This document shows positions 27,297-44,489 of a DNA stretch of 64,000 nucleotides, one piece after another. The notes beneath the pieces are model-generated. The model did no database searches and was not told the origin of the DNA. It was given only the letters and a program-made list of their open reading frames with translations. The stretch is from positions 1-64,000 of the forward strand of contig JAAEEP010000007.1 in NCBI GenBank assembly GCA_013415695.1, written 5' to 3'. A program made the translations under genes and the position numbers. Source of the stretch: Methanomassiliicoccales archaeon. GTDB taxonomy: Archaea > Thermoplasmatota > Thermoplasmata > Methanomassiliicoccales > JAAEEP01. Positions within the stretch are counted from its first letter, which is position 1; each line of letters begins with the position of its first letter.

Positions 27297-28364
27297 TTGC
27301 CTGTTCGTATCCAGATAATCGGAGGCTTCCTTGGAGCCGGAAAAACCACCCTGATAACCAAGATGGCGAAGAAGCTGATGGATCAGGACATGAAGGTTGG
27401 GATAATCATGAACGATCATGTCGATTCCCTGGTGGACACCCAGTACTCCAAAGAGCTAGGGCTGGACTGCTGCGAGGTCGCCGGAGGATGCTTCTGCTGT
27501 CGATTCCCGGATTTCCTTGAGAACGCTAGGGAACTGGTGAAAAATGAGGGCCCTACGCTGATATTTGCGGAGCCAGTAGGCAGCTGCACGGACCTCATGG
27601 CGACGGTAGCCGCACCGCTCAAGCGGGTCTACGGAAACGAGTTCCAGGTGGCTCCCTTGATCATCATGGTGGATGCCGATAGGGCCGTCAGAAACAGGAT
27701 GAATGACAATTCCCTGGGAGGATACCTAAGGCAACACCAGATCTCGGAGGCTGAGTATGTGGTCCTGTCCAAAGTAGATCTTGTTGACAAAGGGGATCTC
27801 GAAAGAGTATCTTCCATGGTCAACGAGATCAATCCCAAGGCGAAGGTATTCCTCTATTCATCTGGTGCGGAGGATGGCCTTGATGCTATTCTCTCCTTGG
27901 CGCTATCGGAGGAGGAAAGTCGCATTGACCCTCGGGAAATTGATTACCATGTATATGCCGAGGCGGAGGCGGAGCTGGGCTGGTATAATGGGACCTTCCT
28001 TGCGAAGGTGGAGAGGTTGGATGCATACCTGCTATGTCGGGAGCTGCTCGAAGATATTTCGTCGAAATTCCCGGTGGAGGATGTTGCCCACGCCAAGATC
28101 ATGCTTGCCTCCGAATCGAACGCGGCAAAGATGAGCGCGGTGATGGGGCGTGTCTCTATCGACGCCGTAGCGGGCTCTAGATTCGCTTCAGGCGAGGCCA
28201 GGATGACCATCAATGCCCGGATCGCCACTGATCCTCAGATCCTCAGGATGATCGTGAACCAGGCGGTTGACCACGCAGCCGAAAGGTTCGGATTGATCTT
28301 TGAACTCGATAAGGAGGATTTCTTCTCTCCCGCAGCACCGAATCCCACCTACAGGATGAAATGA
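27297..28364 (+). CDS. CobW/UreG-type metallochaperone GTPase
   Basis: The 355-residue P-loop GTPase has Walker A GGFLGAGKTT (9-18), the metal-binding GGCFCCRF (C-x-C-C, about 63-70), Walker B-like ADRAV, and the guanine-specifying SKVD. COG0523 proteins insert or store Zn, Co, Ni or Fe, or act in cobalamin metabolism. Its place at the head of a corrinoid methyl-transfer island makes corrinoid or cobalt handling plausible, but this is inference. It starts with TTG behind GGTGAT. A TATA-like TTTTATCT lies near 27233. The stop overlaps the next ORF by 4 bases (ATGA). Confidence 0.85.
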   Translation: MPVRIQIIGGFLGAGKTTLITKMAKKLMDQDMKVGIIMNDHVDSLVDTQYSKELGLDCCEVAGGCFCCRFPDFLENARELVKNEGPTLIFAEPVGSCTDLMATVAAPLKRVYGNEFQVAPLIIMVDADRAVRNRMNDNSLGGYLRQHQISEAEYVVLSKVDLVDKGDLERVSSMVNEINPKAKVFLYSSGAEDGLDAILSLALSEEESRIDPREIDYHVYAEAEAELGWYNGTFLAKVERLDAYLLCRELLEDISSKFPVEDVAHAKIMLASESNAAKMSAVMGRVSIDAVAGSRFASGEARMTINARIATDPQILRMIVNQAVDHAAERFGLIFELDKEDFFSPAAPNPTYRMK

Positions 28365-28639
28365 TTGCGAGAGAATCGCCTATATCCGCTAGGATTCATG
28401 ATTCCTTGATCGACCCTCTGTGTCAAAGAATATCAGGAAATCCTCTTATACTGGGATTGGATTCTGCGTGCTTCAAAATCAAATCGGAGCGGATCGATCT
28501 GTTGAACCGTGACCAAAGGATGAAATTCGCGAATACCGCAATGAGCACCGGAATACTGATGTTCCTGGGATTGATCTGTGCCTCAGTATGCGTAGCCCTG
28601 GTGCTGACCGTCCAGATGGTCCTAGAGCTTTTTCTCTGA
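28361..28639 (+). CDS. Small protein with C-terminal membrane helix
   Basis: This 92-residue ORF overlaps the CobW stop by ATGA. The first half is hydrophilic and not recognised. From residue 54 it reads MKFANTAMSTGILMFLGLIC followed by ASVCVALVLTVQMVLELFL, a convincing single membrane helix. The true start could be the internal ATG at 28520, giving a 39-residue membrane peptide. The function is unknown. Co-expression with the CobW gene is likely because of the overlap. Confidence 0.45.
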   Translation: MIARESPISARIHDSLIDPLCQRISGNPLILGLDSACFKIKSERIDLLNRDQRMKFANTAMSTGILMFLGLICASVCVALVLTVQMVLELFL

Positions 28640-28699
28640 TCATCTTATTGAATTTGCAGCTAGATCAGATGGAATTGGTACCGAGGAATTCCACGAGGA

Positions 28700-29014
28700 T
28701 CATTTTCTGGCCTTCTCGCCAGTTGCGTAGGAGCGCTTGATTCCCCCCTTGAAGTACCAGCGGTAGAGGAGGGCCATGTCTCGTGGGAAGATCCCCACCT
28801 TGTCACCATCTTTTACCGATGAACTCAATTCCGTGTACTCATGGTTGAGGAATATGTGGCTGGTCTCCATCTCGTCGACCTTGAGTATCCCCAGTATGTC
28901 ATTGATCGTTTCAATGTCGTCAATGGGCATTTCCACAATGCCCACGTATCCGCTATCATCTAGCTTAGGTGCTTTGCCCTTGAGATTCCCGAAAAGCCTA
29001 ACCTGCACGGTCAT
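28700..29014 (-). CDS. MoaD/ThiS-like protein with extended tail, AOR partner
   Basis: This 104-residue ubiquitin-fold protein starts MTVQVRLFGNLKG. It has a beta-grasp pattern, ending the core with VKDGDKVGIFPRDM. Canonical MoaD ends in Gly-Gly, but here the chain continues for about 30 residues past the core, with an internal Gly-Gly at 90-91 and a 13-residue basic tail (IKRSYATGEKARK). It may need trimming, or may act as a structural AOR subunit rather than a sulfur carrier. It follows the AOR gene with a 55-base gap, so both probably share a transcript. The T- and A-rich stretch before the ATG contains no obvious SD. Confidence 0.72.
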   Translation of the reverse strand: MTVQVRLFGNLKGKAPKLDDSGYVGIVEMPIDDIETINDILGILKVDEMETSHIFLNHEYTELSSSVKDGDKVGIFPRDMALLYRWYFKGGIKRSYATGEKARK

Positions 29015-29069
29015 GGTGAATCCTCTTTCTTTAATAAATTTAAAGGGGAAAGGGTTTGGGGTAAGTGAT

Positions 29070-30827
29070 TCACTTCCCGAACACACTGTCCAGCTCTTCA
29101 TCTGGGACGTCGTAGACCTCGTTCGACGGAGGCAACGGTTCGATCCTGAAGAACTCGGGGAGCCTGTCGTCCTCGTTGGAGAATCCCGCTCTGATGTTGA
29201 AGTCCCTCTCCAAGAGCACTATCTTGGAACCGAGGGCGATCGCGTCGTCTGCGGACCATTTTGTTCCCAGCACTCCGTTGCAGGATTCCACAATACCATC
29301 AAATCCCTCGGGTATGTCCACGGTCGCGAAGGTCGTGAACAGGCAGTATCCCGAAGAGTCGATGAAGGCGGTGTAATTCTGGAAGTTCCTTGATAGCTGT
29401 CCCTTCTTCTTGTCCAAGGGATCTAGTTTACCCCCCACGCCAAGGATCTCTGGAGCTATCGCATATCCAGCCGTGTGGTCCGCACCCATGGGAGTCGTGG
29501 CGTAGGTCACACCGATTCCCTTGATCGGCCTGGGGTCGTAGGCGGGCAGCCCCTGACCCTTCACCGCTGGGACCCTGTGAACGCCGAAGGCCTGTCCCGC
29601 AAAAGCACATCCGTTAGCCAGCAGGCGCCCGGTTGCGGTCTTATTCTCGATCTCCTTCATCAGCTTGATGGCCTTCTTGCCGTCGCCGAAGTCTGCGAGA
29701 CCTCCTTCCATGGCCACACCCATTGTGTCACCCATCTCGATAGTGTCCAAGCCCAAATCGTTGCATGCTCTGTTCAGCTCTCCCACGTCGTCTAGGTCGT
29801 AGATGCCGCAGTTCGGCCCCAGAGCCCACACGGACTCGTACTCGAGAACGCCAACTGGATCGACGCCACCCTGCTTCACCCATACTTCAGAACATCGGAT
29901 GATGCAACCTGGGCTGCAGGCGTGCGGCCTCTCTCCTCCTCTGGCCTTGATGACCTCGGCCTTCTTCTCTCCAGACACCATTGGTGCCATGTCATCGTAT
30001 CCGGCGGAGAAGTTGCGGTGGGGTAACGCTCCAGCTTCATTGATGACATTCACAAGGGCGGATGTTCCATAGGTATTGAGGGTACCACCCTTCTTGGTGA
30101 TGTCATGCGAGGTAAGAGCATTGGTCAGCTTCTTGGTCCCGATCTTGAAGACCTCCTCGTCGGCCATTTTCACCCCCGGCCCGCCAGAATCATCGATTAC
30201 GATGAACTTCAGACCGCGGGCGGCCATTACAGCTCCAAGTCCTCCTCTTCCCGCGTACCTCGAGGGCATTCCCTCTGGGTCGTTGAAAGCCACTCCGGCC
30301 CCCGCTCCTCCCATTTCACCGGCTATGCCGCAGGCGCAGATGCCCACATCGACACCGAATCGTGCGCGAATATCATCGTACGCCTTATACAGTCCCATGT
30401 TCGACCAAATGGTAGCATCGTGGAACTCGATCTCATCCTTGAGTATGTTGACCATGAAGTAGTCATCTTTCTTGCGATGTCCTTCGACCACTATGGCCTT
30501 GAGCCCAAGTCGGGCCACCTTCTGCGCGAAGCTGGTTCCCGCGTTAGCCTCCTTAATTCCCCCCGTCAGGGGCGATTTTCCCCCAACCGATAGTCTACCA
30601 GAAGTCGGTGCCTTCGTACCAGTAACTATACCAGGTGCTAGAACGAGCTTGTTGTTCGGTCCCAATGGATGGCAGTCCGCTGGGACCTCTTCAGCCACTA
30701 TGGACGATGTCAACCCCCTTCCACCAAGATTCTTCCACTTGTCGGGGACATCCTCCATGGTGGCCTTGAGCTCGGTCATATCCAATCTTAAGATTTTGGT
30801 AGCCACCTTCTCACCTAATGTTATCAT
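29070..30827 (-). CDS. Aldehyde:ferredoxin oxidoreductase (tungstopterin family)
   Basis: The 585-residue enzyme oxidises aldehydes to acids (or reduces acids) with ferredoxin, using a tungsten bis-pterin and a 4Fe-4S cluster. It starts with KILRLDMTE, then KNLGGRGLTSSIV, LAPGIVTGTKAPTSGR, FNDPEGMPSRYAGRGGLGAVMAARGLK, and the cluster cysteines CSPGCIIRC with a later Cys in SSGYCLF. YATTPMGADHTAG is the pterin motif region. ATG 30827 matches homologue N-termini. An ATG at 30872 is in frame, and a TATA-like sequence near 30893 could serve either. The preferred aldehyde is not predictable. The MoaD-like gene follows. Confidence 0.93.
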   Translation of the reverse strand: MITLGEKVATKILRLDMTELKATMEDVPDKWKNLGGRGLTSSIVAEEVPADCHPLGPNNKLVLAPGIVTGTKAPTSGRLSVGGKSPLTGGIKEANAGTSFAQKVARLGLKAIVVEGHRKKDDYFMVNILKDEIEFHDATIWSNMGLYKAYDDIRARFGVDVGICACGIAGEMGGAGAGVAFNDPEGMPSRYAGRGGLGAVMAARGLKFIVIDDSGGPGVKMADEEVFKIGTKKLTNALTSHDITKKGGTLNTYGTSALVNVINEAGALPHRNFSAGYDDMAPMVSGEKKAEVIKARGGERPHACSPGCIIRCSEVWVKQGGVDPVGVLEYESVWALGPNCGIYDLDDVGELNRACNDLGLDTIEMGDTMGVAMEGGLADFGDGKKAIKLMKEIENKTATGRLLANGCAFAGQAFGVHRVPAVKGQGLPAYDPRPIKGIGVTYATTPMGADHTAGYAIAPEILGVGGKLDPLDKKKGQLSRNFQNYTAFIDSSGYCLFTTFATVDIPEGFDGIVESCNGVLGTKWSADDAIALGSKIVLLERDFNIRAGFSNEDDRLPEFFRIEPLPPSNEVYDVPDEELDSVFGK

Positions 30828-31095
30828 TCGTTCAGCATATTCAAATATGTTACGAAATGCGTAGTGAAACATATCGCTATTTGACGGATGTAATTTTAAT
30901 AGTGCAGTCTAGTTAAGAGAATACGCAAATCTGAATACGGCAATCGCAATATTACGCGGTGCTGGATTCGTAAGGGATCTTGAGCAAGGATTTCGGGTCA
31001 ATCCCGATAATACGCTTATTTAACAATCATTTATTCAGAATCCGCTTGAGTAAGATGGTTATGTTTATCAGGTGGTCCCATATATTTACGTTGGA

Positions 31096-31725
31096 ATGAT
31101 TGAGGCCTCGATTACCCTGGAGATGCCCGATAACTGGGTGAAGGTAGTAGGGAGCAAGTTCCCGACCCCCATCAAGTTCATAGAGTGCTTGCCTTACGGT
31201 GAGTCGGGCGGAAGGTCACTGGTGGAGATAGAGGGAGACCCCACTACTACTGACCAGATGATCGAGGAGATCAAGAAGCATCCCAGCGTGTGCAAGGTCG
31301 ATGTTTCTACATTCGGGGACGGCCGTATCTCGGGGTCGATAGTGACCAATAAATGCGTGGCGTGCAGGGCATTGACCGGAACAGAGTGCTTCCTGACCCG
31401 GGCGAGGAGCATGCCTGACGGTAAGGTGCAATGGACCGTGACCAGCGGCGGTAATTCCTCACTGGCGAAGCTAGTCGACCGCCTGAAGGATTCGGGATGC
31501 ACTGTCCAGATCAATAGCATCACGAAGATAAGTGGACAGAACGTTATCACCAAAAGGCAGGAGGAGATCATGAGGTTCGCCCTGGAGAATGGATTCTACG
31601 AATATCCCAGGAGGATCACCATCAGAAAACTCGCCCAGAAGCTGGATATCTCCCCATCGACCCTGAACGAGATCCTCCAGAGGGGCGAGAGGAATATCGT
31701 GGAGTCGTTCTTCAAACACAAATGA
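31096..31725 (+). CDS. Bacterio-opsin activator-type (HTH_10) transcription regulator
   Basis: The 209-residue protein has a C-terminal HTH_10 domain: ITKRQEEIMRFALENGFYEYPRRITIRKLAQKLDISPSTLNEILQRGE (about 155-200). The N-terminal 150 residues look like a ligand- or redox-sensing domain. Clustered cysteines (NKCVACRALTGTECFLTR) could bind a metal or sense redox state. It is divergent from the AOR gene and probably controls AOR/MoaD or the methyl-transfer genes. The ATG at 31096 is preferred to an in-frame GTG at 31072; TATA-like sequences occur near 31014-31020 and 31078-31085. Confidence 0.85.
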   Translation: MIEASITLEMPDNWVKVVGSKFPTPIKFIECLPYGESGGRSLVEIEGDPTTTDQMIEEIKKHPSVCKVDVSTFGDGRISGSIVTNKCVACRALTGTECFLTRARSMPDGKVQWTVTSGGNSSLAKLVDRLKDSGCTVQINSITKISGQNVITKRQEEIMRFALENGFYEYPRRITIRKLAQKLDISPSTLNEILQRGERNIVESFFKHK

Positions 31726-31805
31726 TCTTGTTCGTATCCTGATCCTCGACCGCAACCACTTTTCTAGATAATCGACTCGAGTCCATCGTACTATTGAGGT
31801 TCGAT

Positions 31806-33812
31806 CTACGCCCTCTCATAGAACTGCATTGGCTTTCCTATTGATCTGAAGACCATGTTCAGCTGTATCAGTAGGTCCCGATCCCCATTCTCCAGACCAG
31901 AGAGCGCGATCGGCTCCTCCTCCTTGAACACCTCAATTCCGTGGGCACCTGATTGACGTGCCCTGCTGACCACGATCTCCTCTCCCAGTTCCCTGGCGTA
32001 CGCGATGGCCTGGGAGAGCCTTTCGAAGTCCTTCTTTTCGCCGGGCAGATGCACAGAGCATGGCGGATCCTCCAGCCCAGCCATTCCTGGCTTGGGTTGG
32101 ATCAGTATCTCCACGGTCTCGATGATGCTCCCTGTAATGGCGCCCACCGCATTCCCGACCTCGCTGTGATCTGGAACGATTAGTTCGGTTCCCATGTTCC
32201 TTGCCACCGAGGGGAGATATGTCTCGACTGGAGCGCCAATCCCGATGATCTTCTTATGGAGGTCCATTCTGCAGGAGTAGTCCGGTCCTCTCATTCCAGC
32301 GACCATCATTTCAACCAGATGATCCGCCACCGGGCAGTAGGATGTCTCCCTCGTCTCCTCGTACACCAGCTTCCTCAACAGTTCCCTGGAAATCTCGTCA
32401 ATGACCTTCTGTTTCACCATTGTGCAGAACTCTTTGGGACTCGTCCCCAGCCGCTCGCTATAGAACCGCACGGCCAATATCGATGCGGATGGATCGTGTA
32501 TCACATATGATCCTTCTACGTGAAGGATGTCGGTTGGGGTCAATCCCACCCGACTGATGACACCATATTCCTCAAGACGGCTGATGCTGTAGGAGAAGGG
32601 AAGTATCCCCGTTCTCTCCTTGAGATCCGTCAGGAGGCCTGGTCCCTCTTCTAGTACACTCAAGATCTGCCAGTCCTCATTGCCCAGCCGGAAGTTCTTG
32701 GGTATCCTGTTGAAGATCAGGAAATCCGTCGGTTGATAAAGCCTGGATTTGTCGATGTATGTGGGATCCGAGTACTTCTCGTCCAGATCCAACTTCTCCA
32801 ATCGTTCTCGGATCCTGGGATAGATGGAACAGGCATGACACAAGGGAATGACCCTGTTGGGTAGGAGTCGGATGTTTCCTCGGTTCACCACGATCCGGCT
32901 GTCGCCGCCTATCCCTCCGGTGGAGACGCTTATGGCCCTCACCCTTGTCCTCCAGTTGGCGATCCTGGCCCCCTCGGGGTCCAGCCTGGGCATTCCGTCT
33001 CTGAGAATCCCTATGTCGGTGGTGGTGCCGCCCATGTCGATGATCACCGCGTCTTCCTCATCCGTCAGATATTTGGCCCCGTTGATGCTTGCCGCAGGCC
33101 CTGACAGTATCGTTTCCACGGGACGTTCCCTTGCCACCTTCTCGCTCATAATCGATCCGTCCCCCTTCATGATCATCAAGGGGGCTTGAATCTGTAACTC
33201 TTCCAGTATCAATTTCGCTGACGAGATCAGTTCCGATATCACTGGTATCAGCCTGGCATTGAGAACGGCTGTCAATGTTCTCTCTTGAAATCCAAGATCG
33301 GTGGAAAGCTCGTGACCACATACCACGGGAAGGTGAGTCAAGGTGCTGATGAGTTCTTTGGTCTCGACCTCGTGTTCTGGATTCCTCACTCCCAAGTAAC
33401 CCGAGACGGCGAACGCGTCCACGAAATCCCTTACCTCGAGGATGAACCCCTTGGCCTTATCGACATCAAGAGGTTCGGTCTCCTCCCCCGCAAGGTCATG
33501 CCTTCCCTTCACCTTGATCCGCTTCTCGGTTGGAACCGAAAGGCTGTATTCCTCACCAATGGCGATCAGGGCTACCCTTGATCCCTTTCCCTCTACCACG
33601 GAATTCGTGGCAAGTGTGGAAGACAGCGAGACCAGCTTGATGCAAGGGAATAGATCCCTGTCCAGCTGAGATAGGGAATTTGAGATTCCCTTTGAAAGAT
33701 CTTCCCGGGTGGTTGGTGCTTTCGCCTTGCTCAATACATTTCCGGTCCCCATGTCAAGAATGACTGAATCGGTGTAAGTGCCACCGGTGTCGATGCCCAG
33801 GCCAAATTTCAT
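31806..33812 (-). CDS. Hydantoinase/oxoprolinase (HyuA-like) ATPase-fold protein
   Basis: The 668-residue protein opens GLGIDTGGTYTDSVILD and has IIDMGGTTTDIGILRDGMP, the two phosphate-binding loops of the actin-like hydantoinase A/N-methylhydantoinase family. Members open hydantoins or 5-oxoproline with ATP, but close relatives sit beside corrinoid methyltransferase genes in methanogens and acetogens, where their role is not established. A helix-turn-helix-like insert appears in the middle (ILSVLEEGPGLLTDLKERTG... RLEEYGVISRVGLTPTDIL), which is unusual. SD GAGGTGA precedes the ATG. The stop of the RACo-like gene lies 33 bases upstream of this start. Confidence 0.85.
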   Translation of the reverse strand: MKFGLGIDTGGTYTDSVILDMGTGNVLSKAKAPTTREDLSKGISNSLSQLDRDLFPCIKLVSLSSTLATNSVVEGKGSRVALIAIGEEYSLSVPTEKRIKVKGRHDLAGEETEPLDVDKAKGFILEVRDFVDAFAVSGYLGVRNPEHEVETKELISTLTHLPVVCGHELSTDLGFQERTLTAVLNARLIPVISELISSAKLILEELQIQAPLMIMKGDGSIMSEKVARERPVETILSGPAASINGAKYLTDEEDAVIIDMGGTTTDIGILRDGMPRLDPEGARIANWRTRVRAISVSTGGIGGDSRIVVNRGNIRLLPNRVIPLCHACSIYPRIRERLEKLDLDEKYSDPTYIDKSRLYQPTDFLIFNRIPKNFRLGNEDWQILSVLEEGPGLLTDLKERTGILPFSYSISRLEEYGVISRVGLTPTDILHVEGSYVIHDPSASILAVRFYSERLGTSPKEFCTMVKQKVIDEISRELLRKLVYEETRETSYCPVADHLVEMMVAGMRGPDYSCRMDLHKKIIGIGAPVETYLPSVARNMGTELIVPDHSEVGNAVGAITGSIIETVEILIQPKPGMAGLEDPPCSVHLPGEKKDFERLSQAIAYARELGEEIVVSRARQSGAHGIEVFKEEEPIALSGLENGDRDLLIQLNMVFRSIGKPMQFYERA

Positions 33813-33845
33813 GTTTCAATTCACCTCGTGAGTAGTATCGAACGA

Positions 33846-35702
33846 TCAACGACGCAGCTGAGATATTACGCCTGGAAATAACTCGTCCCGGAAATGGGGG
33901 AGGAATAGAGCCTCGAAGAACTGCTCCTGGAAATTGGAACGAGCCGCCAGCTCGATGTACTTAATGTTCTTAGCCAGCCGCTCAGCTTCCATCCTTGATC
34001 CGCGGTTGAGAAGAGCGATCTTTGCGCCGGAACCCGCTGCGTTCCCGATCGGTATTATCCGTTCCAGTGGAATCTCTGGCAGCATACCCATGAACAGCGC
34101 GCTCCTTGGTGAGATGTAATTGCCGAAGGCTCCAGCAAGCAGTATGCTGTCTAGTTCATCCTGGGTTATTCCCATCTCCTCCATGAGGGCGACCGCTCCC
34201 ACGTACATTGCCGCCTTGGCACTGAGGACCTCTCCGATATCCTTCTGGGTGATGGAGATCACTTCCCCATTGGCCGACTCGCTCTCTGGGGCAAGGACGA
34301 ATTGAAGCGCTCCGTCGATATTGCATATTCGCGGATGATCCAGTTCCCTGTCTATCTTGCCCCTTTCGTTAATGATGCCCGCCCGGAACATCTCGGCTAT
34401 GGCATCGACCACCGCGGACCCGCATATACCCTTGGCCTTGGCCCCGTTGATGGTGGAGACTGTTACCTCAAGGTCGTCCCCTATGATGATATGATCTATG
34501 GCTCCACTTGAGCCCCTCATACCATGCTTGATGTTCCCGCCCTCAAGAGCGGGACCGGCCGCGCATGATGTGCTTGCCACTCCATTGGAGCTGCCAATTG
34601 AGATCTCGCCATTAGTACCGATATCGATGACCATACGTGGCTCTTCACTCTCCCAAATCCGAGAGGCTATGAGGACGCTCATGTGATCAGCGCCCACGAA
34701 TCCGGCCACGTTTGGAAGCGAATATGCGTAGCTCTCCTGAGCGAGATTGATCCCAAGACTGCTGGCCTTTACCTCGAAGGGCTCCGCCACAACGGGTACG
34801 TAGGGGGCGCGTCCAAGCCCGTATGTATCGAGCCCGAAGAATAGATGGTGCATGGCGGTGTTGCCCACGATCACCATCTCGTAAACGCTCTGTCTGGATC
34901 TTCCTGCTTCCCTGCAGCATTCACCAACCAGCTTTTCTATCGCGGAAGAAATGACGTTCTGCAAGGTCTCGGCCCCGCCCTCGTTGCGCATGACATAGGT
35001 CATCCTTGAGAGTACATCATCGCCGTACTTGATCTGAGGATTCATCATGGACCTGACGGCAAGACATTCACCGGTTTCAAGGTCCATGAGGTACGCGACG
35101 ACCGTGGTGGTACCGATATCCACGGCCAATCCATTGACTCCCTCGTTCCCCTCTTGGAGAACTCCAAGTATCTCTCCTTGGCGAACCACGGCCAGGATCT
35201 CCTCGCCTGACCTCAGACTGGCTGAAAGGGAGTTGAGCACATGGGGGGACGGCAATCTGGTAGAGATTTCGTTCTCCCCAAGCGCCAAGTTGAACCTCTC
35301 TAGGTCAGCAACGGGATTATCAAGAGAAGCTGTGGGTACTCTCAATCTCAAGGTGCGAACAACAGGTTCCATTGCGATCGATATGGCTGAATCCTCGAGG
35401 ATGACCTGGTCACCTCTCATTGATTCTGCCGGTACCTCGACCACCATGTCATCTGAAACGGTCACAAGGCATGCGAGTCTAATCCCTCGCCCAAGGTCTT
35501 CCTCCGAGATGTGAGCCCGGTCCTCTTCGTTTATTGGCGGCGCATTCTCCTTGATAATGACCTTGCACCTGCCGCATTTTCCCCTTCCACCGCAGACCAT
35601 CTCCAGAGATATGCCGTTGTGCTCAGCGATCTCGGCGAGCGAACCTGCCTCCGATGATGTGATCACCGATAGGCCGGATGGTTCAAACAGTACCTTGGGC
35701 AT
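33846..35702 (-). CDS. RACo/RamA-like reductive activator of corrinoid proteins (ASKHA)
   Basis: The 618-residue protein begins with a plant-type 2Fe-2S ferredoxin domain (CGGRGKCGRCKV, last cysteine in RLACLV), followed by a linker and the DUF4445 ASKHA ATPase domain (AVDIGTTTVVAYL, VIDIGTNGEI, GICGSAVVDAIAEM, LLAGAFGNYI). Such proteins reduce inactive Co(II) corrinoid to Co(I) at the cost of ATP, restoring methyltransferase activity. The neighbour encoding a corrinoid protein is its expected client. The ATG at 35702 has GAGGT 7 bases upstream. TTG at 35726 also fits but gives a weak N-terminus. Confidence 0.92.
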   Translation of the reverse strand: MPKVLFEPSGLSVITSSEAGSLAEIAEHNGISLEMVCGGRGKCGRCKVIIKENAPPINEEDRAHISEEDLGRGIRLACLVTVSDDMVVEVPAESMRGDQVILEDSAISIAMEPVVRTLRLRVPTASLDNPVADLERFNLALGENEISTRLPSPHVLNSLSASLRSGEEILAVVRQGEILGVLQEGNEGVNGLAVDIGTTTVVAYLMDLETGECLAVRSMMNPQIKYGDDVLSRMTYVMRNEGGAETLQNVISSAIEKLVGECCREAGRSRQSVYEMVIVGNTAMHHLFFGLDTYGLGRAPYVPVVAEPFEVKASSLGINLAQESYAYSLPNVAGFVGADHMSVLIASRIWESEEPRMVIDIGTNGEISIGSSNGVASTSCAAGPALEGGNIKHGMRGSSGAIDHIIIGDDLEVTVSTINGAKAKGICGSAVVDAIAEMFRAGIINERGKIDRELDHPRICNIDGALQFVLAPESESANGEVISITQKDIGEVLSAKAAMYVGAVALMEEMGITQDELDSILLAGAFGNYISPRSALFMGMLPEIPLERIIPIGNAAGSGAKIALLNRGSRMEAERLAKNIKYIELAARSNFQEQFFEALFLPHFRDELFPGVISQLRR

Positions 35703-35883
35703 GTTGATTACCTCTATCTGTCGCAAGTCTCTGAAATATATTATTATTTAGTATCTACCCGTCGGCATGACGCCATTAATGGAGCGTTTTCATCGTGCAT
35801 TTGACACAAACCGCAGAAATTCTATGGGCGTGAAAATCCAAACCGGATGGAAATAAATAAAAAAGGAAAGGGGGGGTTTGAAA

Positions 35884-37080
35884 TCACCAGTTAGGCTTGA
35901 TTTCTTCCCTGTACTTGGTACCTAGCTCATCCGCGGTGATCAGAGCGGAGTATACCCTTGCAGGACTCACTGGTGTCGCTCCCAGCAATAGCACCTTGTC
36001 CTGCATGCAGGACTTGCAGGCACCAGCCCAGATCAGGTCAAGATCCGGTGAGACTCCCTTGCCCAGCAGGTCCTCGAAGGTTATCGACAGCCCGACGGAG
36101 TCTGCCCAGGCAATTGCCTCCCAGATCTCTTCCGAAGGTCGGTCCTCAAGGATCATCTGGGTTATGGTGGTGAACGATATCACCTGACCGTGCGGTATGT
36201 GCCTGTCCGCCTTGCGGTGCAGGGCTAGCAATCCAGCTCCAACCAGACCATCGTGAATTCCGTGTCCTCCAGCCAGGCCGCCGCTCTCGAATCCCACACC
36301 CGCCATAAGGGTGTTGGTCTCGATAATCCTCTCGAGCGCAGGTGTGACCACCTTATGCCTGTTGGCTGCCAAGGCCTGGACACCGAACTCCCTCAGCTGG
36401 TTCCAGCACTCATTCGCGATTAGCCTGGAAGAGACGGTGGAATATCCCCCTACAAGCGTGGGCGTCTCGGCCTGCTTGGAAGCCTCCATCTCGAACTTGA
36501 TGCACATCGCGTCTCCCATTCCGTTTATGGTCTGGGATACTGGACCTTCCGCGATGATCTTTGAATCCATGATTACCGCGTGAGTGTCCTCTGGATAGAG
36601 ATCGTACCTGTTCCATGTCAGATCGTCGTTGTATATGACCGAGAGAGCGCTGGTGAAACCAGCCATGGAGGCGACTGTTCCAACAAGAACAAGCTTGCCG
36701 CCCATATCCACATTGTTGGCAACTCTCCTGGCGACATCGCACATCGATCCCCCGCCGACTCCAACGATGAAGTCGGCCTCGGATGCCTTGGCCGCCTCGG
36801 TTACCTTGTTGTTCTCGGTGTCGGAACACAACCAAACGCCTGGATACTCATCAGCAACCTCTACGCCGTTCTCGGCAAGGCTGTTCCTGACGTTCTCGCC
36901 GGCAATCTTCAACGCCGTCGTTCCACCCATTATGAACGCCTTCTTTCCAAGGTGTCCACAGTATTTACCAGTGTCCTTCGAAGCCTCGGGACCCTGAACA
37001 TAGATGGCCGGAGACTTCCAAACGAATGGAAGCTGGGGCTTTATCCAGTCCATTTCTTTCAATCTATAAGTCATTACCAT
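35884..37080 (-). CDS. GldA-like iron/zinc-dependent dehydrogenase in the corrinoid island
   Basis: The 398-residue protein resembles glycerol dehydrogenase and glycerol-1-phosphate dehydrogenase: FIVGVGGGSMCDVARRVANN for NAD, then the metal-binding FESGGLAGGHGIHDGL and HIPHGQVISF. It oxidises or reduces a polyol, hydroxyketone or aldehyde; the substrate is unknown. It is divergent from the corrinoid operon and shares the AT-rich promoter region, so it is probably co-regulated. GGAG precedes the ATG (37080). The end carries a poly-C then poly-T stretch (minus strand, about 35864-35880), a likely terminator. Its place here may mean that the methyl donor derives from an alcohol. Confidence 0.85.
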   Translation of the reverse strand: MVMTYRLKEMDWIKPQLPFVWKSPAIYVQGPEASKDTGKYCGHLGKKAFIMGGTTALKIAGENVRNSLAENGVEVADEYPGVWLCSDTENNKVTEAAKASEADFIVGVGGGSMCDVARRVANNVDMGGKLVLVGTVASMAGFTSALSVIYNDDLTWNRYDLYPEDTHAVIMDSKIIAEGPVSQTINGMGDAMCIKFEMEASKQAETPTLVGGYSTVSSRLIANECWNQLREFGVQALAANRHKVVTPALERIIETNTLMAGVGFESGGLAGGHGIHDGLVGAGLLALHRKADRHIPHGQVISFTTITQMILEDRPSEEIWEAIAWADSVGLSITFEDLLGKGVSPDLDLIWAGACKSCMQDKVLLLGATPVSPARVYSALITADELGTKYREEIKPNW

Positions 37081-37385
37081 TGATTCTCTCTCCTTCGAAC
37101 CAGATGTTCGCGATGGCTGTTGGTCAGAAGATTTATTTATAGTTTAATGTAGAATGACTTCAGATACGAGTCGAATTCTCCGTAAATAGTTGGTGAATCA
37201 GAGAAATTCGAAGATTTAAATACTCGGTATTGATTTTAGTTTTGATGTTGTCTACGAATATCGTTTTGATAATGTTCGTTTTAACAATAGTGAAAGGCAG
37301 ATATAACGTAAACTTTTTTTAGGGGATTATTATACAATAGTTTAGCCCAAACCCATATAAGGTGAAAGGGCTCGGAGGAGTAACT
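37081..37385. promoter_or_regulatory. Divergent promoter region of the corrinoid operon
   Basis: This 305-base AT-rich interval has no gene. On the minus strand, CTATAAATAAAT (about 37132-37144) is a good TATA box for the GldA-like gene. On the plus strand, ATTATTATACAAT (about 37326-37338) predicts a start near 37360 for the corrinoid gene. Near-repeats TCGTTTTGATAATG at 37261 and TCGTTTTAACAATAG at 37276, spaced 15 bases apart, could bind a regulator; ATTTAAATACTC near 37211 is another TATA-like box. Confidence 0.5.
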
Positions 37386-38012
37386 TTGTATGAAGAATTG
37401 GCACAGGCAACCGCGGTTGGTGATGTCAAGAAAGTCACAGTGCTTGTTGACGGAGCTCTCGAATCGGGTAAAGAACCCACAGAGATCGTTGAAAAAGGTC
37501 TCGCAGCCGGAATGGAGATCATCGGTGAGAAGTACGACAAAGGGGAAGCGTATCTCGTTGACGTCATCGTAGCCGCAAACGCCTTCAAGATCGCTATGAA
37601 CTTGATAAGGCCCCATTTCAAGGCTACTGACAAGAAGATAGGTACCGCAGTAATGGGAACCGTCGAGGGAGATATACACGATCTTGGGAAGAACCTCGTA
37701 TGCGTCGCATTGGAGGTAAGCGGGTTCAACGTGATTGATCTCGGAAACGATGTCACGCCAGAATCATTCTCTTCCACGATCAAGTCCGCTGACGCTGATG
37801 TCTTGGGCATGTCCACCCTGATCACGACCACCATGGTTAATATGAAGAACACCGTCGATCTGTTGAATGAAGATGGTGTCAGGGAGAACGTGAAGGTCAT
37901 TGGCGGGGGAGCGCCAATAGACGCCGCGTACATGAAGGAGATCGGCGGTGACCTGTACGCTCCGAACGCTTTTGAGGCGGTGACTGTGATCAAGAAAGCT
38001 ATGGGGGCATAA
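37386..38012 (+). CDS. Corrinoid (cobalamin-binding) methyl-carrier protein
   Basis: The 208-residue MtbC/MttC/MtaC-like protein has an N-terminal four-helix cap (B12-binding 1, residues 1-80) and a Rossmann-type B12-binding domain starting GTAVMGTVEGDIHDLGKNLV, in which D-x-H-x-x-G supplies the lower-ligand histidine. It carries the methyl group between methyltransferases. The TTG at 37386 was chosen because GGAGGAG lies 5-6 bases upstream. An in-frame GTG at 37362 would add KGLGGVT. The stop is 2 bases before the methyltransferase gene, so they are co-translated. Confidence 0.95.
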   Translation: MYEELAQATAVGDVKKVTVLVDGALESGKEPTEIVEKGLAAGMEIIGEKYDKGEAYLVDVIVAANAFKIAMNLIRPHFKATDKKIGTAVMGTVEGDIHDLGKNLVCVALEVSGFNVIDLGNDVTPESFSSTIKSADADVLGMSTLITTTMVNMKNTVDLLNEDGVRENVKVIGGGAPIDAAYMKEIGGDLYAPNAFEAVTVIKKAMGA

Positions 38013-38014
38013 AA

Positions 38015-39175
38015 ATGGATGAGATGACTCCAAGAGAGAGGGTTGAGACAACCTGCAGATTCAAGGAGCCTGATCGAGTACCCATCGATTTTGGCGGCTT
38101 GATATCCACAATACTGGATGCAGGCCCCTATGGATATCGTGCTCTGGCAGAACATCTGGGTGTCACTGATTATGAAAAGCCTGCTGTGGCTTACATCTTG
38201 AACAGCGTGGCCAATATTGATGAGAGGATCTATCAGAGATTGCACTCTGATTTCAGGCACGTTTTCCCTCCGAACGCCGAGGGACCCATCACCGTCCACG
38301 AGGACGGAACGATGACCGTTGTGCATGGAATCAGATTCAAGCCCCTTGGCAACTGGTATAACCCCTTCGACTTCCCTCTGGGAAATGCGACCACCATCGA
38401 GGATATACAGAATTACGGCAAGTGGGCGAACCCCAACGATCCATACTACTTAGAGGGCACTGAGGAGACCCTGAGGCACCTCAAGGAGGATACGGATTGG
38501 TCGGTTTACGCTCTCTGCGGATACTGGGGAATGCTGGGACACGCATACGCGTTCGTCGCAGGATTCGATAAGTTCCTGTCCGACATGATCGTTAACCCGG
38601 AATTCTACCACGCCATGATGGAGCACATCCTGGACCTGAACGTGCAGTGGATAGAGAACTACTGGGGGAAGCTTGGTGACTACCCCGATGTGATCCTGAT
38701 CGGTGATGATATGGGAGCTCAGGACGGGCCATTTATGCCACCGAGGATGTTCCAGGAATTCGTCAAGCCCTACATGGGCAAGCTGATCAAGACCATAAAA
38801 AAGAACAGCAAGGCCAAGCTCAAACTGCACTCATGTGGCTCGGTATACCAGCTCATCCCTGATCTGATCGACATCGGCGTGGACATACTGAACCCCATTC
38901 AACCTCTGGCCAAGGATATGGCTCCGGCGAAGCTCAAGAAGGAGTTCGGAAGGGACATCGTTCTGCACGGCGGAATCGACGAGCAGAGGATGCTGGCATT
39001 CGGCACCAAGGAGGAGGTCATCGAGGGCACCAAGGAGTACCTGAAGATCCTGGCTCCGGGTGGCGGATACATCGCAGCAGCGTCCCACAACATCGAGCCC
39101 GAGACCGCACCTGAGGTCGCGGTGGCGATGTATGACACCTGCTACGAGTTCGGAAGGTATCCGATACCTCAGTGA
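38015..39175 (+). CDS. URO-D-fold corrinoid methyltransferase (MtaA/MtbA-like)
   Basis: The 386-residue protein has the uroporphyrinogen-decarboxylase fold used by methylcobamide:CoM and related methyltransferases. It starts TPRERVETTCRFKEPDRVPIDFGG. The zinc-binding region appears as LKLHSCGSVYQLIPDLIDIGVDILNPIQP, and HGGIDEQRMLAFGT follows. It could be methyltransferase II (to CoM or a pterin) or an unusual substrate-specific enzyme; sequence alone cannot decide. It forms an operon with the corrinoid gene (2-base gap). No MttB-, MtmB- or MtaB-type gene is recognisable nearby. A hairpin plus T-run follows at 39195. Confidence 0.9.
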   Translation: MDEMTPRERVETTCRFKEPDRVPIDFGGLISTILDAGPYGYRALAEHLGVTDYEKPAVAYILNSVANIDERIYQRLHSDFRHVFPPNAEGPITVHEDGTMTVVHGIRFKPLGNWYNPFDFPLGNATTIEDIQNYGKWANPNDPYYLEGTEETLRHLKEDTDWSVYALCGYWGMLGHAYAFVAGFDKFLSDMIVNPEFYHAMMEHILDLNVQWIENYWGKLGDYPDVILIGDDMGAQDGPFMPPRMFQEFVKPYMGKLIKTIKKNSKAKLKLHSCGSVYQLIPDLIDIGVDILNPIQPLAKDMAPAKLKKEFGRDIVLHGGIDEQRMLAFGTKEEVIEGTKEYLKILAPGGGYIAAASHNIEPETAPEVAVAMYDTCYEFGRYPIPQ

Positions 39176-39194
39176 AGGATTAAGAAACGAATTC

Positions 39195-39223
39195 AGGGAG
39201 GTCAACCTCCCTTTCAATTTTTA
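39195..39223 (+). terminator. Hairpin and T-run after the methyltransferase gene
   Basis: AGGGAGGT (39195-39202) and ACCTCCCT (39205-39212) form a compact stem, followed by TTCAATTTTTA. It lies between the methyltransferase and the DUF1638 gene and could cause partial termination. Confidence 0.6.
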
Positions 39224-39304
39224 CATTCCAGGTGGAGCCGAAAACATGATATTCGAAATGTTGTGGTATATGAGCAAGACCTTCGAATTACAGGAGGTGA
39301 TTTC

Positions 39305-40105
39305 GTGGAAGAGAACGGCACACTAGCTATCATCGGCTGCCTCCTCATGGAGGACGAGATGGTTCACGTCATTACTCATGATTCCAGTATCAAGAGCGTC
39401 CTCGTTATAGAGAACGAGGTGAATGACAGCATACTGTCCAAACTCAATGACGGGCTTGAAGGGGTTCCCATCGGGCTGTTGAACGAGGATGAACTCCAAT
39501 CACTTCCCAAGAATGATGGGTTCTCGATCCTTGTCTGGATGAAGGACATGGCGCTCCATGAGAGCCCCGAGATACTGAAGAAGGACATGATAGAGACCAT
39601 TCGGAAGCTCAGGGGAACCTGCGATGCCGCCATGCTGTTCTACGGGCTATGCGGGAACGCGCTCAAGGATATTGGCGGCCTATCCAAAGAAGCGGGGATG
39701 CCGGTCACCATACTCAGGGATTCGAGGGGAGAGATCGTGGACGATTGCATCGCTGCTGTCATAGGTGGAAGAGAAGCTTACCAGAAGATCGTCAGCAGGG
39801 ATCTGGGTGTTTTCTTTCTGACACCGATGTGGGCGGAGGTCTGGAGGGAGATGGCAGTGAGAACGAGGGTGGTTCCACCGGGATACGATATCAGCCTCTA
39901 CAAGATGGTACTCCAGAGCTCTGGATACACGAAGGTCATCAAGATCGACACGGGATTGAATGACGCCGAGAAGTTCGAAGATCAAGCGGTGGAGTTCGCT
40001 GAGATATTCGAACTCGAGAAGGTGGACATGAATGGAGATCTGGACCTCGTGAAGGAATCCTACGAGAAGGCGAAGGCCACTATCAAAGATGAAGTATCCA
40101 CCTGA
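39305..40105 (+). CDS. DUF1638 protein of the methyl-transfer island
   Basis: This 266-residue protein belongs to a family (DUF1638) that often sits beside corrinoid methyltransferase genes. It starts LAIIGCLLMEDEMVHVI and includes CDAAMLFYGLCGNALKDIGGLSKEAGMPVTILRD and DDCIAAVIGGREAYQKIV. Several cysteines (GC, LCGN, DDC) suggest metal binding. The family resembles cobalamin- or metal-handling proteins, but its activity is unknown. GTG 39305 was chosen because it follows a perfect SD, GGAGGTGAT, by five bases. The upstream reading to 39263 has no such signal. A stem-loop at 40112 follows. Confidence 0.85.
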   Translation: MEENGTLAIIGCLLMEDEMVHVITHDSSIKSVLVIENEVNDSILSKLNDGLEGVPIGLLNEDELQSLPKNDGFSILVWMKDMALHESPEILKKDMIETIRKLRGTCDAAMLFYGLCGNALKDIGGLSKEAGMPVTILRDSRGEIVDDCIAAVIGGREAYQKIVSRDLGVFFLTPMWAEVWREMAVRTRVVPPGYDISLYKMVLQSSGYTKVIKIDTGLNDAEKFEDQAVEFAEIFELEKVDMNGDLDLVKESYEKAKATIKDEVST

Positions 40106-40273: not shown

Positions 40274-41107
40274 ATGGCAGAGGAAGCAACAATACCCATG
40301 GCTAACGAAGAGGACCTGAAGGTCTTGAGCAATTTGAAGCGAATAAAGCACGTTATCATAGTCATGAGCGGCAAGGGCGGTGTGGGAAAAAGCACGGTTG
40401 CCGCCAACCTTGCGGTCGCACTTTCAATGAAGGGATATGAAACGGGTCTGATGGACGTGGACATTCACGGGCCCAACATCCCAAAGATGCTCAAGATAGA
40501 GGACGCCGTCATTACTGGAGATAAAACAGGGTTGTACCCTGTTCAGGTACCCCCACACCTAAAGGTGATGTCCATGGCGTTCCTCCTCCAGGACAGAGAC
40601 GCCCCTATCATCTGGAGGGGACCCATGAAGATGGGAGCTATAAGGCAGTTCATTGGGGATGTGAAATGGGGTGATCTGGACTACCTCATAGTAGACCTTC
40701 CCCCAGGTACTGGTGATGAGCCATTGAGCATCGCTCAGCTAATCCCAAAGGCTGATGGCTCCATCGTCGTGACCACCCCGCAGGACGTGGCACTGCTCGA
40801 TTCCAGGAAATCGGTCAACTTCTCACGATCGCTCAAGCTGCCCGTAATCGGAATAATCGAGAACATGAGCGGCATGGTCTGCCCTCACTGTGGAGAACAC
40901 ATTGACCTGTTCAAGATCGGAGGGGGTAAGAGATCCGCTGAGGAACTTGGCGTTCCCTACTTGGGTGGTGTTCCAATAGATCCCAAGGTAGTACACTCAG
41001 GAGACGATGGCATGCCTATCGTGCTGTACGATTCTGGCTCTCAGGCAGCGAGTGCCTTCATGGAAATCGTGGACAAGATCACCGACAAACTGAAAAAGAA
41101 TGATTAA
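40274..41107 (+). CDS. Mrp/NBP35-type iron-sulfur carrier ATPase
   Basis: The 277-residue P-loop protein has a deviant Walker A SGKGGVGKST (about 34), GLMDVDIHGPNIPKML, the switch region YLIVDLPPGTGDEP, and a conserved C-x-x-C (VCPHCGE, about residue 200) that binds a bridging 4Fe-4S cluster between two subunits. Mrp proteins deliver Fe-S clusters to target enzymes. It heads a set of Fe-S and NifX-like genes. It is followed by a large hairpin at 41109, which may reduce read-through. Confidence 0.92.
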   Translation: MAEEATIPMANEEDLKVLSNLKRIKHVIIVMSGKGGVGKSTVAANLAVALSMKGYETGLMDVDIHGPNIPKMLKIEDAVITGDKTGLYPVQVPPHLKVMSMAFLLQDRDAPIIWRGPMKMGAIRQFIGDVKWGDLDYLIVDLPPGTGDEPLSIAQLIPKADGSIVVTTPQDVALLDSRKSVNFSRSLKLPVIGIIENMSGMVCPHCGEHIDLFKIGGGKRSAEELGVPYLGGVPIDPKVVHSGDDGMPIVLYDSGSQAASAFMEIVDKITDKLKKND

Positions 41108-41108
41108 G

Positions 41109-41138
41109 AAAGAGGGGGGGCCCCTTGGCCCCCTCTTT
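41109..41138 (+). terminator. GC-rich hairpin between Mrp and NifX-like genes
   Basis: AAAGAGGGGG (41109-41118) pairs with CCCCCTCTTT (41129-41138) around a ten-base loop. It is immediately after the Mrp stop codon. No T-run follows, so it may be an mRNA processing or stability element rather than a terminator. Confidence 0.55.
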
Positions 41139-41179
41139 ACCCAGGAATGGACTTCTGGGATGAAAGGAGGAAATCAAAC

Positions 41180-41566
41180 ATGAAATTATGCGTGACATCA
41201 CAGGGCGACGATCTCGATTCAGAGGTCGACCCCCGGTTCGGAAGATGCGCCTACTTCTTGATAGTGGACACCGTGAGCATGGAGTTCGAGGCCGTCTTGA
41301 ACGGGGGAGTGGGCGCGGCAGGCGGTGCTGGTGTCCAGGCCGCACAGGCAGTAGCTGGACTAGGCGCTGAGGCAGTGGCCACCGGCAATATTGGACCAAA
41401 CGCTTTCGAGGCTCTGAGTGCGGCGGGGATTCGCATGTTCACCGGAGCTTCCGGGACGGTGAGAAGAACGGTGGAGGCTTTCAAAACGGGCGCACTCAAG
41501 GAGACGACCGCTGGCCCTACTACAGGCTCGCACTCAGGAATGAGAGGTGGAAGAGGAAGGATGTGA
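41180..41566 (+). CDS. NifX/NifB-type dinitrogenase-cofactor-family protein
   Basis: The 128-residue protein has the NifX/VnfX/NafY fold. It starts MKLCVTSQGDDLDSEVDPRFGRCAYFLIVD, where PRFGR is the family hallmark. The central part has GAGVQAAQAVAGLGAEAVATGNIGPNAF, and a Gly-Arg-rich end. Such proteins bind Fe-S or Mo-containing clusters; in sulfate reducers the related orange protein binds a Mo-Cu cluster. The metal is unknown. GGAGG 9 bases upstream supports ATG 41180. The next, similar gene begins 37 bases later. Confidence 0.9.
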   Translation: MKLCVTSQGDDLDSEVDPRFGRCAYFLIVDTVSMEFEAVLNGGVGAAGGAGVQAAQAVAGLGAEAVATGNIGPNAFEALSAAGIRMFTGASGTVRRTVEAFKTGALKETTAGPTTGSHSGMRGGRGRM

Positions 41567-41603
41567 TACTGGGAGGCCCAGATCAACTGAAGGAGAGATT
41601 CGA

Positions 41604-41963
41604 ATGAAGGTAGCAGTACCGACCAATGGAGAGCGGGGGCTGGACGAAGAGGTTGGCCTCCATTTCGGCAAGGTACCCACATACACAATCGTTGACACCC
41701 AGACCAACCTTGTCAAGATAGTTGAGAACACCAGCGAACATCGTGGAGGGGTGGGGCTTCCACCGGACCTGATCGCGAAAACCGGTGCCGATGTCATGAT
41801 AGTCTTCAATGCGGGAATGAGGGCTATAAATCGACTGCAGGAGCTGGGAATCGATGTCTACACCGGAGCCCAAGGCACGGTGAGGGAGGCAATAGAAGCG
41901 CTCCAGGATGGTAGATTGGAACCTGCAAACGCCCAGAATGCCTGTAAAGAGCATGAGCACTAG
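41604..41963 (+). CDS. Second NifX/NifB-type protein
   Basis: The 119-residue paralogue starts MKVAVPTNGERGLDEEVGLHFGKVPTYTIVD. It has IVENTSEHRGGVGLPPDLIAKTGADVMIVFNAGMRAINRL and a C-terminal tail with a Cys-His-rich end (ACKEHEH) that could bind metal. SD AAGGAGAG precedes ATG 41604. Its stop overlaps the first codon option of the following MinD-type gene, so translation is coupled. With the preceding protein it may form a heterodimer or pass clusters along. Confidence 0.9.
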   Translation: MKVAVPTNGERGLDEEVGLHFGKVPTYTIVDTQTNLVKIVENTSEHRGGVGLPPDLIAKTGADVMIVFNAGMRAINRLQELGIDVYTGAQGTVREAIEALQDGRLEPANAQNACKEHEH

Positions 41964-41968
41964 TGATA

Positions 41969-42814
41969 ATGATGAAGATAGCCGTCGCAAGCGGGAAAGG
42001 CGGCACGGGAAAGACCACGGTGGCTGTGAACCTCGCCTTGTCCCTCAAGAAGTGTACCCTCGTTGATTGCGATGTGGAGGAGCCAAATTGTGCCATTTTC
42101 CTCAACACGTCCATGCAGAAATTGGAGGAAGTGAGACTTCCTGTCCCGGTATTCGATCTGGATAGGTGTACCTACTGTGGCAAATGTGCTGATTTCTGCA
42201 TGTACAATGCCATCGCGGTCTTTCCCGAAAAGCTGCTGTTCTTCCAAGACATGTGCCATTCTTGTGGTGGATGTGCGATCCTGTGTCCAGAGAACGCAGT
42301 TACCGAATCCACGAGGAAAATTGGTGAGATAGACCACGCCCGCATTGCCGAACTGGACATCTACCAGGGAAAGCTGGAGGTAGGGGAACCCCTTGCAGTG
42401 CCCATCATCAGGAGAGTCAAGGAGTACGCCAAAGATCATTCCGTGGTGATTTACGATGCCCCTCCCGGGACGGCATGTCCCGTGATTGACACCCTGAAGG
42501 ATGCTGACATAGCCCTGCTGGTCACAGAGCCAACGCCGTTCGGCCTACACGATCTGAAGCTTGCCGTCGATGTCGTCAGGAAGATGAACATCCCTTTAGG
42601 GGTGATAATCAACCGGGATGGAGTGGGCAATGATTGTGTGGATCGCTATTGTGAAGAGGAGGGCATAGAGATCGTCATGCGCATCCCCAATGATCGCAGG
42701 ATCGCAGAGATGTACTCGAATGGGATACCTTTCATCTTTGAGTTACAAGAGTACAGGGAGATCATGCTCCAGTCCTATTGGAGGATATATCAGATAGCGG
42801 AGGCGGGACCGTGA
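41969..42814 (+). CDS. MinD-family ATPase with ferredoxin insert
   Basis: The 281-residue protein combines a ParA/MinD P-loop (SGKGGTGKTTVAVNLA) with a 2x4Fe-4S ferredoxin insert (CTYCGKCADFCMYNAI and CHSCGGCAILCPENAV, about 63-115). The switch segment is VVIYDAPPGTACPVIDTL. Two such ATPases in tandem, next to NifX-like proteins, are the hallmark of the orange-protein (ORP) gene group in sulfate reducers. The ATPase may drive cluster transfer. The ATGs at 41969 and 41972 are both possible, and a GTG at 41963 overlaps the upstream stop. The stop overlaps the next start by one base. Confidence 0.92.
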   Translation: MMKIAVASGKGGTGKTTVAVNLALSLKKCTLVDCDVEEPNCAIFLNTSMQKLEEVRLPVPVFDLDRCTYCGKCADFCMYNAIAVFPEKLLFFQDMCHSCGGCAILCPENAVTESTRKIGEIDHARIAELDIYQGKLEVGEPLAVPIIRRVKEYAKDHSVVIYDAPPGTACPVIDTLKDADIALLVTEPTPFGLHDLKLAVDVVRKMNIPLGVIINRDGVGNDCVDRYCEEEGIEIVMRIPNDRRIAEMYSNGIPFIFELQEYREIMLQSYWRIYQIAEAGP

Positions 42815-43674: not shown

Positions 43675-44110
43675 GAAGGACCCGTTCGAGAAGGCCATTG
43701 AGGAGATACAGGCCAGGATAGTCGAAGATGAGGAACGCCTCTACTCGCCGATCGTATTGAAGGAATCACGGAACCCCTACCACATGTGGAAGATGGAGGA
43801 CGCTCATGGCCGGGCCCAGGTTCAGGGGATCTGCGGGGACACCATGTGGATCTACCTGAAGGTCGATGGAAAGACTATCCTGGAGGCGAGCTTTGAGACC
43901 GATGGTTGCGGGGCAACCATGGCCGTGGGGAGCAGGTTGATGAAGATGGTCGAGGGCTTGGAACTCGCAGATGTGCTGATGATGACCGATGACGATCTAA
44001 TTGATGAGTTGGGAGGCCTTCCAGAGGACAGCCTGCACTGCGCAGGTCTCGCCGTCTCGACCCTATATAAGGCGGTTGATGACCTATACGCTAAGGGCGT
44101 AGTAGGGTAA
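43667..44110 (+). CDS. IscU-type iron-sulfur scaffold
   Basis: The 147-residue protein has the three IscU cysteines: ICGDTMWIYLKVDG (about 56), SFETDGCGATMAVGSRL (about 82) and DSLHCAGLAVSTLYKAV (about 125). IscU assembles 2Fe-2S and 4Fe-4S clusters before transfer. An N-terminal 40-residue extension is helical and acidic. It starts with GTG overlapping the upstream stop, so it is coupled to the MinD gene. The absence of an IscS-type desulfurase next to it suggests sulfide or another sulfur source, a known feature of anaerobic archaea. Confidence 0.9.
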   Translation: MSEKDPFEKAIEEIQARIVEDEERLYSPIVLKESRNPYHMWKMEDAHGRAQVQGICGDTMWIYLKVDGKTILEASFETDGCGATMAVGSRLMKMVEGLELADVLMMTDDDLIDELGGLPEDSLHCAGLAVSTLYKAVDDLYAKGVVG

Positions 44111-44152
44111 AGTTATACTATCCCGCATTCTTACGGTATATAGAGGATAAAA

Positions 44153-44437: not shown

Positions 44438-44489
44438 GAGTCCTTCCCTGGTTCTTCATATAGGGCGCTGTCCATTCCTTTTTGATATC

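Follow-up and report, generated by a model that had tools for sequence, protein, structure and literature searches.

A corrinoid methyl-transfer island with a URO-D-fold protein as its probable substrate-side methyltransferase in a Methanomassiliicoccales archaeon

Genes for a corrinoid protein, a URO-D-fold methyltransferase and several proposed partners lie together at positions 27,297 to 40,105 of a 64,000-nucleotide stretch of DNA from a Methanomassiliicoccales archaeon (hereafter the window; contig JAAEEP010000007.1 of GenBank assembly GCA_013415695.1, positions 1 to 64,000 of the forward strand). The genes of this island were checked as open reading frames and by Pfam and NCBIfam scans. 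All ten genes listed by a first-pass annotation, which had been made from the sequence alone, are in place, the match of the MoaD-like protein being a weak one:

27297..28364, plus strand: CobW-family GTPase, a possible metal or cobalt chaperone (PF02492, 103 bits); island membership uncertain
28700..29101, minus strand: MoaD/ubiquitin-like small protein (Ub-Mut7C, 21.5 bits, weak against a cut-off of 23)
29070..30872, minus strand: tungsten enzyme of the aldehyde:ferredoxin oxidoreductase (AOR) family (AFOR_N and AFOR_C, 190 and 265 bits)
31072..31725, plus strand: HTH_10 transcriptional regulator (PF04967, 63 bits)
31806..33812, minus strand: HyuA-like ASKHA ATPase (PF05378 and PF01968, Hydant_A_N and Hydantoinase_A, 108 and 112 bits)
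33846..35726, minus strand: RACo-type corrinoid reductive activase (RACo_C_ter 299, Raco_middle 193 and N-terminal Fer2 33 bits)
35884..37080, minus strand: GldA-like iron/zinc alcohol dehydrogenase (Fe-ADH, 67 bits)
37362..38012, plus strand: methyltransferase corrinoid protein (B12-binding 86 and B12-binding_2 59 bits)
38015..39175, plus strand: URO-D-fold corrinoid methyltransferase, the proposed substrate-side methyltransferase, MT1 (PF01208, 92 bits)
39263..40105, plus strand: DUF1638 protein, a proposed corrinoid reactivation partner (PF07796, 128 bits)

The centre of the island consists of two divergent operons. The GldA, RACo and HyuA genes run leftwards in that order, and are separated by 281 bp from a rightward operon in which the corrinoid gene is followed after 2 bp by the URO-D gene and after a further 87 bp by the DUF1638 gene. 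The corrinoid protein bears the DxHxxG cobalt-ligand motif as DIHDLG at residue 104 and scores 192 bits with TIGR02370 (cut-off 215). RACo has a 2Fe-2S motif, CGGRGKC, at residue 45 and reaches 473 bits with the AcsV model, below its cut-off of 800. The metal-ligand motifs of GldA are kept (GMGD at 187, GGHG at 271 and HGQ at 297), and the protein is a divergent copy, scoring 294 bits with PRK09423 against a cut-off of 336 and against 355 for a paralogue on contig 11. The MoaD-like and AOR genes overlap by 32 bp. As this pair and the CobW gene lie beyond the HTH_10 regulator, their membership of the island is less secure. Elsewhere in this genome, in a contig-8 island with a corrinoid–URO-D pair nearby, an AOR gene lies directly 3′ of a RACo gene; possible roles of AOR are the oxidation of an aldehyde and electron supply to RACo.

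None of the ten island proteins matches any family of the classical substrate-specific methyltransferases (MtxB) in the Pfam and NCBIfam scans. The reported absence of MttB, MtmB and MtaB types from the window is upheld and extends to the whole genome, where searches for these three families, with positive controls in Methanosarcina acetivorans, were negative (MtbB was not searched for). The genome is 1.99 Mb in size and 99.6% complete, and forms its own, deep-branching family within the order. It carries mcrB, mcrD, mcrG and mcrA on contig 13. Contamination by the mcr-bearing or MtaA-bearing contigs finds no support, their tetranucleotide correlations with the window being 0.948 and 0.954. 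MtaB is present in 104 of the 147 genomes of the order, and is missing from the family of the window and from the next two families (seven genomes). Published environmental Methanomassiliicoccales have been described as largely methanol-specific (PMC10804542). No tRNA-CUA (tRNA-Pyl) was found, a weak negative, as only 29 tRNAs were detected and introns may hide others.

Other methyl-transfer genes are present in the genome, which encodes three B12-binding_2 proteins. Contig 28 bears a corrinoid protein with two MtaA-type genes, both scoring above the TIGR01463 and PRK06252 cut-offs, together with RamA, two HyuA paralogues and MtrA–MtrH. The only MtrH of the genome lies directly 3′ of this MtrA (L013:2-1585), which is truncated by the contig edge and carries a C-terminal extension. 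A full Mtr complex is rejected, since a whole-genome search did not find MtrE; soluble MtrAH has been described in environmental Methanomassiliicoccales (PMC6147122; PMC10804542). The contig-8 island (L014:349-10208) comprises RACo–AOR, then an aminotransferase, an amidohydrolase, a URO-D protein, a corrinoid protein and another URO-D protein. Both of its URO-D proteins have an HxC...C motif and no MtxB was seen in it, and it is a candidate for a second URO-D-type methyl-transfer system.

The first-pass annotation had described the island as lacking a recognisable methyl donor enzyme, on the premise that a corrinoid protein requires a partner of the MttB, MtmB, MtbB, MtaB or MtrH type. This is not right, because MT1 enzymes of the URO-D superfamily are well established, namely MtvB, OdmB, VdmB, MtoB, CdmB and CmuA (PMC13222342; PMC8630106), and a list of MtxB types without them is incomplete. 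Methyl removal, the step for which an enzyme seemed to be missing, is probably the work of the URO-D-fold protein, whose relatives are known to do this. Two options had been left open, and the one in which this protein takes the methyl group from the substrate is now favoured; for the other, a donor enzyme encoded elsewhere, no MttB, MtmB or MtaB gene was found. Neither finding that the annotation had named as refuting its view, an MtxB gene elsewhere under the same regulatory sequence or a URO-D protein grouping within typical MtaA/MtbA, was made in these searches and in the trees described below. The island has the marks of a URO-D-type MT1 system in that the URO-D gene has its own corrinoid gene, 2 bp away, and RACo has a 2Fe-2S domain.

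The URO-D protein falls below all curated cut-offs (TIGR01463, 53 bits against 235; PRK06252, 64 against 244). Its placement within MtaA, an outcome that would have spoken for a typical MtaA, was rejected by the approximately unbiased (AU) test, with p=0.0002 for the window protein together with a copy from genome G001 and 0.014 for the whole family. The family is itself well supported (bootstrap 100; 85 members with support 1.0). On the MT1 side the tree holds CdmB and a CdmB-like protein, and no full-length O-demethylase references; the position of CdmB in a FastTree analysis was unsupported and was not used. MtaA and MtbA have a His-x-Cys...Cys zinc site. In the window protein H272-x-C274 aligns with the HxC part of this motif, and the third position, Cys in MtaA, is H358, a possible third ligand. 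His272 is invariant in the family, residue 274 is Cys in 49 and Asp in 36 of 85 members, and 80 of the 85 have His at residue 358. A structure model built from 43 sequences, replacing a poor one from seven (pLDDT 64), predicts the URO-D/MtaA fold with a pLDDT of 94. The solved structure nearest to this model is MtaA (4ay7; Foldseek E 7e-14), HemE being only slightly more distant.

Among known systems, the aryl-O-demethylases Mto, Mtv, Odm and Vdm (MtoABCD in the case of Methermicoccus; PMC8630106) share with the island a URO-D MT1, a corrinoid protein, a RACo-type activase and a methanogen host. In contrast to them, the island has no MtoA (an MtrH-like MT2) and adds GldA, HyuA, AOR and DUF1638, and the likeness shown so far lies in fold and gene content. 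The chloromethane system of Acetobacterium dehalogenans (CdmBCA; PMC13222342) likewise combines a URO-D-fold MT1 with a separate corrinoid protein, but CdmB lacks HxC, whereas the window protein has HxC with His as third ligand, and their profile similarity is weak (E 0.005). MtaA, MtbA, MtsA and CmuA have the URO-D fold, the HxC motif and a corrinoid partner; the window protein differs from these in having His for Cys as third zinc ligand, in lying outside MtaA in the tree and in falling below the cut-offs.

Parts of the island recur in other genomes. The trio of GldA divergent from corrinoid–URO-D is found in G001, a Methanomassiliicoccales genome of another family, at 73, 59 and 71% identity. 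As the flanking genes there (L028) differ from those of the window, this recurrence points to more than chance. As to the first-pass suggestion that an alcohol or aldehyde is involved, GldA adjoins the pair in these two genomes only, and the G001 contig spans just 5 kb, so that an AOR gene could lie beyond its ends. The divergent promoter regions of the window and G001 have no evident regulatory motif in common and yielded two short palindromes only. The corrinoid–URO-D pair was seen in G001, L036, L038, L072 and L102. It occurs in a deltaproteobacterial and an Asgard genome. A Synergistaceae genome (L036) has corrinoid–URO-D–DUF1638 in the same order. In Desulfosporosinus (L102), genes for MeTr, URO-D and corrinoid proteins adjoin. 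This MeTr is a pterin-binding, MT2-like protein, and its presence beside the pair argues that a member of this URO-D family works there on the substrate side. Separately, an encapsulin (Linocin_M18) gene (L036:1419-2285) lies about 1.8 kb upstream of the Synergistaceae set.

Taking these observations together, we favour, with some confidence, the reading that the island encodes a URO-D-type MT1/corrinoid system with RACo and DUF1638 as reactivators, the methyl group probably passing to coenzyme M (CoM). It is a genuine B12-dependent corrinoid system in a new genetic setting, its methanogen host seemingly being without classical MtxB. In the catalytic sequence that we infer, the URO-D protein (38015-39175) would bind a methylated substrate and move its methyl group onto the Co(I) of the corrinoid protein (37362-38012). 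Co(II) arising from occasional oxidation would be repaired by the ATP-dependent 2Fe-2S RACo (33846-35726), aided by DUF1638; mutant fitness data tie both RACo/RamA-like proteins and DUF1638 to the reactivation of B12 for methionine synthesis (PMC5764234). The methyl group would then probably reach CoM through the two contig-28 MtaA proteins, the single MtrH being another candidate. With two MtaA-type genes already present on contig 28, along with RamA and a corrinoid protein, the MtaA function does not call for the window URO-D. The demethylated product, or an alcohol related to it, would probably be the substrate of GldA, and the HyuA ATPase is a conserved companion of corrinoid systems in the order.

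Several observations weigh against this reading. Union of the window URO-D with CdmB and the CdmB-like protein was neither recovered nor rejected (AU p=0.28). The island has no MT2 gene of the MtrH or MeTr kind, the sole MtrH being on contig 28. A scan of genome contigs with the single URO-D sequence gave nothing and an alignment scan gave 80 loci, the best among the matches listed, so that the family counts describe a sample; among these matches, 48 members have HxC, and 8 of these have a corrinoid gene nearby; of the 36 members with HxD, one does. With so few corrinoid neighbours, MT1 activity is not a trait of the whole family. In a large HxD-rich branch (L059-L114, mainly Anaerolineae and Gammaproteobacteria) a corrinoid neighbour is almost never seen, which together with the HxD motif suggests a different chemistry there.

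Retention of the HxC half of the MtaA zinc site also counts against a substrate-side role, since it allows a function on the thiol side. The URO-D protein would then be an MT2, or bifunctional like MtsA, transferring methyl from the corrinoid to CoM or another thiol, with a substrate-side enzyme unrecognised or encoded elsewhere. H358 as a possible stand-in for Cys and the closeness of the model to MtaA, nearly equalled by HemE, are in keeping with this. We nevertheless regard it as unlikely, given the exclusion of the protein from the MtaA clade, the two MtaA-type genes that the genome already has, the lack of any classical MtxB in the searches described above and the MT2-like MeTr beside the Desulfosporosinus pair.

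Somewhat less likely again is a role of the island in anabolic or salvage methyl transfer, for instance in methionine formation or the recycling of selenium- or sulfur-bound methyl groups, and not in energy metabolism; this too would count against the favoured reading. DUF1638 and a RamA-like protein serve methionine synthesis by split methionine synthases in Phaeobacter (PMC5764234), type I mlp clusters have been proposed to act in methyl-selenide recycling or methionine salvage (PMC10418091), and a large part of the URO-D family is found outside the methanogens. A type I mlp cluster, however, needs at least two MtaA-like proteins, a corrinoid protein and Ram on one strand (PMC10418091), and is ruled out here, the island having one URO-D and its RACo on the other strand. 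It also contains no homocysteine methyltransferase, and its GldA and AOR neighbours suggest catabolism.

HyuA extends the comparison to the whole order: of its 147 genomes, 130 have a homologue at E<=1e-40. A conserved Methanomassiliicoccales cluster (loci L182-L200, for example L189:3481-9755 and L197:4078-10137) comprises a corrinoid protein, a URO-D protein with an HxC...C motif, a CobW-like GTPase, proteins of 154 and 118 amino acids, HyuA and a DGC-domain protein, at times with DUF1638 and HTH_10. At 20 sampled HyuA loci, several of them on contigs cut short, a different URO-D was present at 18, the 118-amino-acid protein at 17, CobW at 16 and a corrinoid protein at 13. This cluster resembles the island in its closely related HyuA (up to 57% identity), its CobW-like GTPase (about 31% identical to that of the window) and, at times, its DUF1638 and HTH_10; HTH_10 homologues (29-32%) stand beside HyuA at three sampled loci. 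Its URO-D and corrinoid proteins are, however, of other lineages, with a best own-genome URO-D match of 23% and 44% for the window corrinoid, and unlike in the window no RACo, GldA or AOR was seen alongside. No published description of a corrinoid–URO-D–CobW–HyuA cluster was found in the literature searched, and the cluster is apparently undescribed. HyuA-like genes have been reported as neighbours of methanol/methylsulfide genes, in M. acetivorans (PMC11619418), and as members of glycine betaine clusters (PMC9768040). Least probable of the alternatives is that HyuA readies the substrate, using ATP to open or phosphorylate a lactam, hydantoin or enol that carries a methyl group, before URO-D and corrinoid proteins demethylate an N- or O-methylated ring compound: its very wide co-occurrence with corrinoid/URO-D clusters, these reports and the hydantoinase-like subunits of acetophenone carboxylase, whose ApcE (9fou) is a weak fold match to the URO-D protein, lean that way, but a HyuB partner was not seen, the Pfam hydantoinase profile leaves the C-terminal half of the window HyuA unmatched, and the role of a corrinoid-reactivating ASKHA ATPase fits equally well.

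Two further observations concern the surroundings of the island and of another RACo. Downstream in the window, at 40274-44813, a run of Mrp/MinD-like ATPases, two of which bear cysteine motifs of the ferredoxin type, was noted by eye along with small NifX-like proteins. On contig 1 of the genome (L242:9983-14083), a single protein of 1367 amino acids is a fusion of a CO dehydrogenase of the bacterial type (TIGR01702, residues 21-646) and an acetyl-CoA synthase alpha/beta module (NF040764, residues 668-1365), with CdhD/gamma genes 3′ of it and an AcsV-like RACo nearby.

With Mcr present and MtaB, MttB and MtmB lacking, the main candidates for the methyl source of this organism are the island, MtrAH and the contig-8 URO-D pair. 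Across the order, a HyuA-like ATPase emerges as a partner that corrinoid systems have kept in 130 of 147 genomes; this gap in knowledge is open to test, and these methanogens are of importance in guts and wetlands. As a more speculative extension, to which we give little credence at present, an Mcr-bearing lineage without classical methanol and methylamine methyltransferases may feed methanogenesis through URO-D enzymes, with a methoxylated or methylated alcohol or polyol as the substrate of one of them and GldA and AOR oxidising the demethylated product. If true, one molecule of such a compound would yield both a methyl group and electrons.

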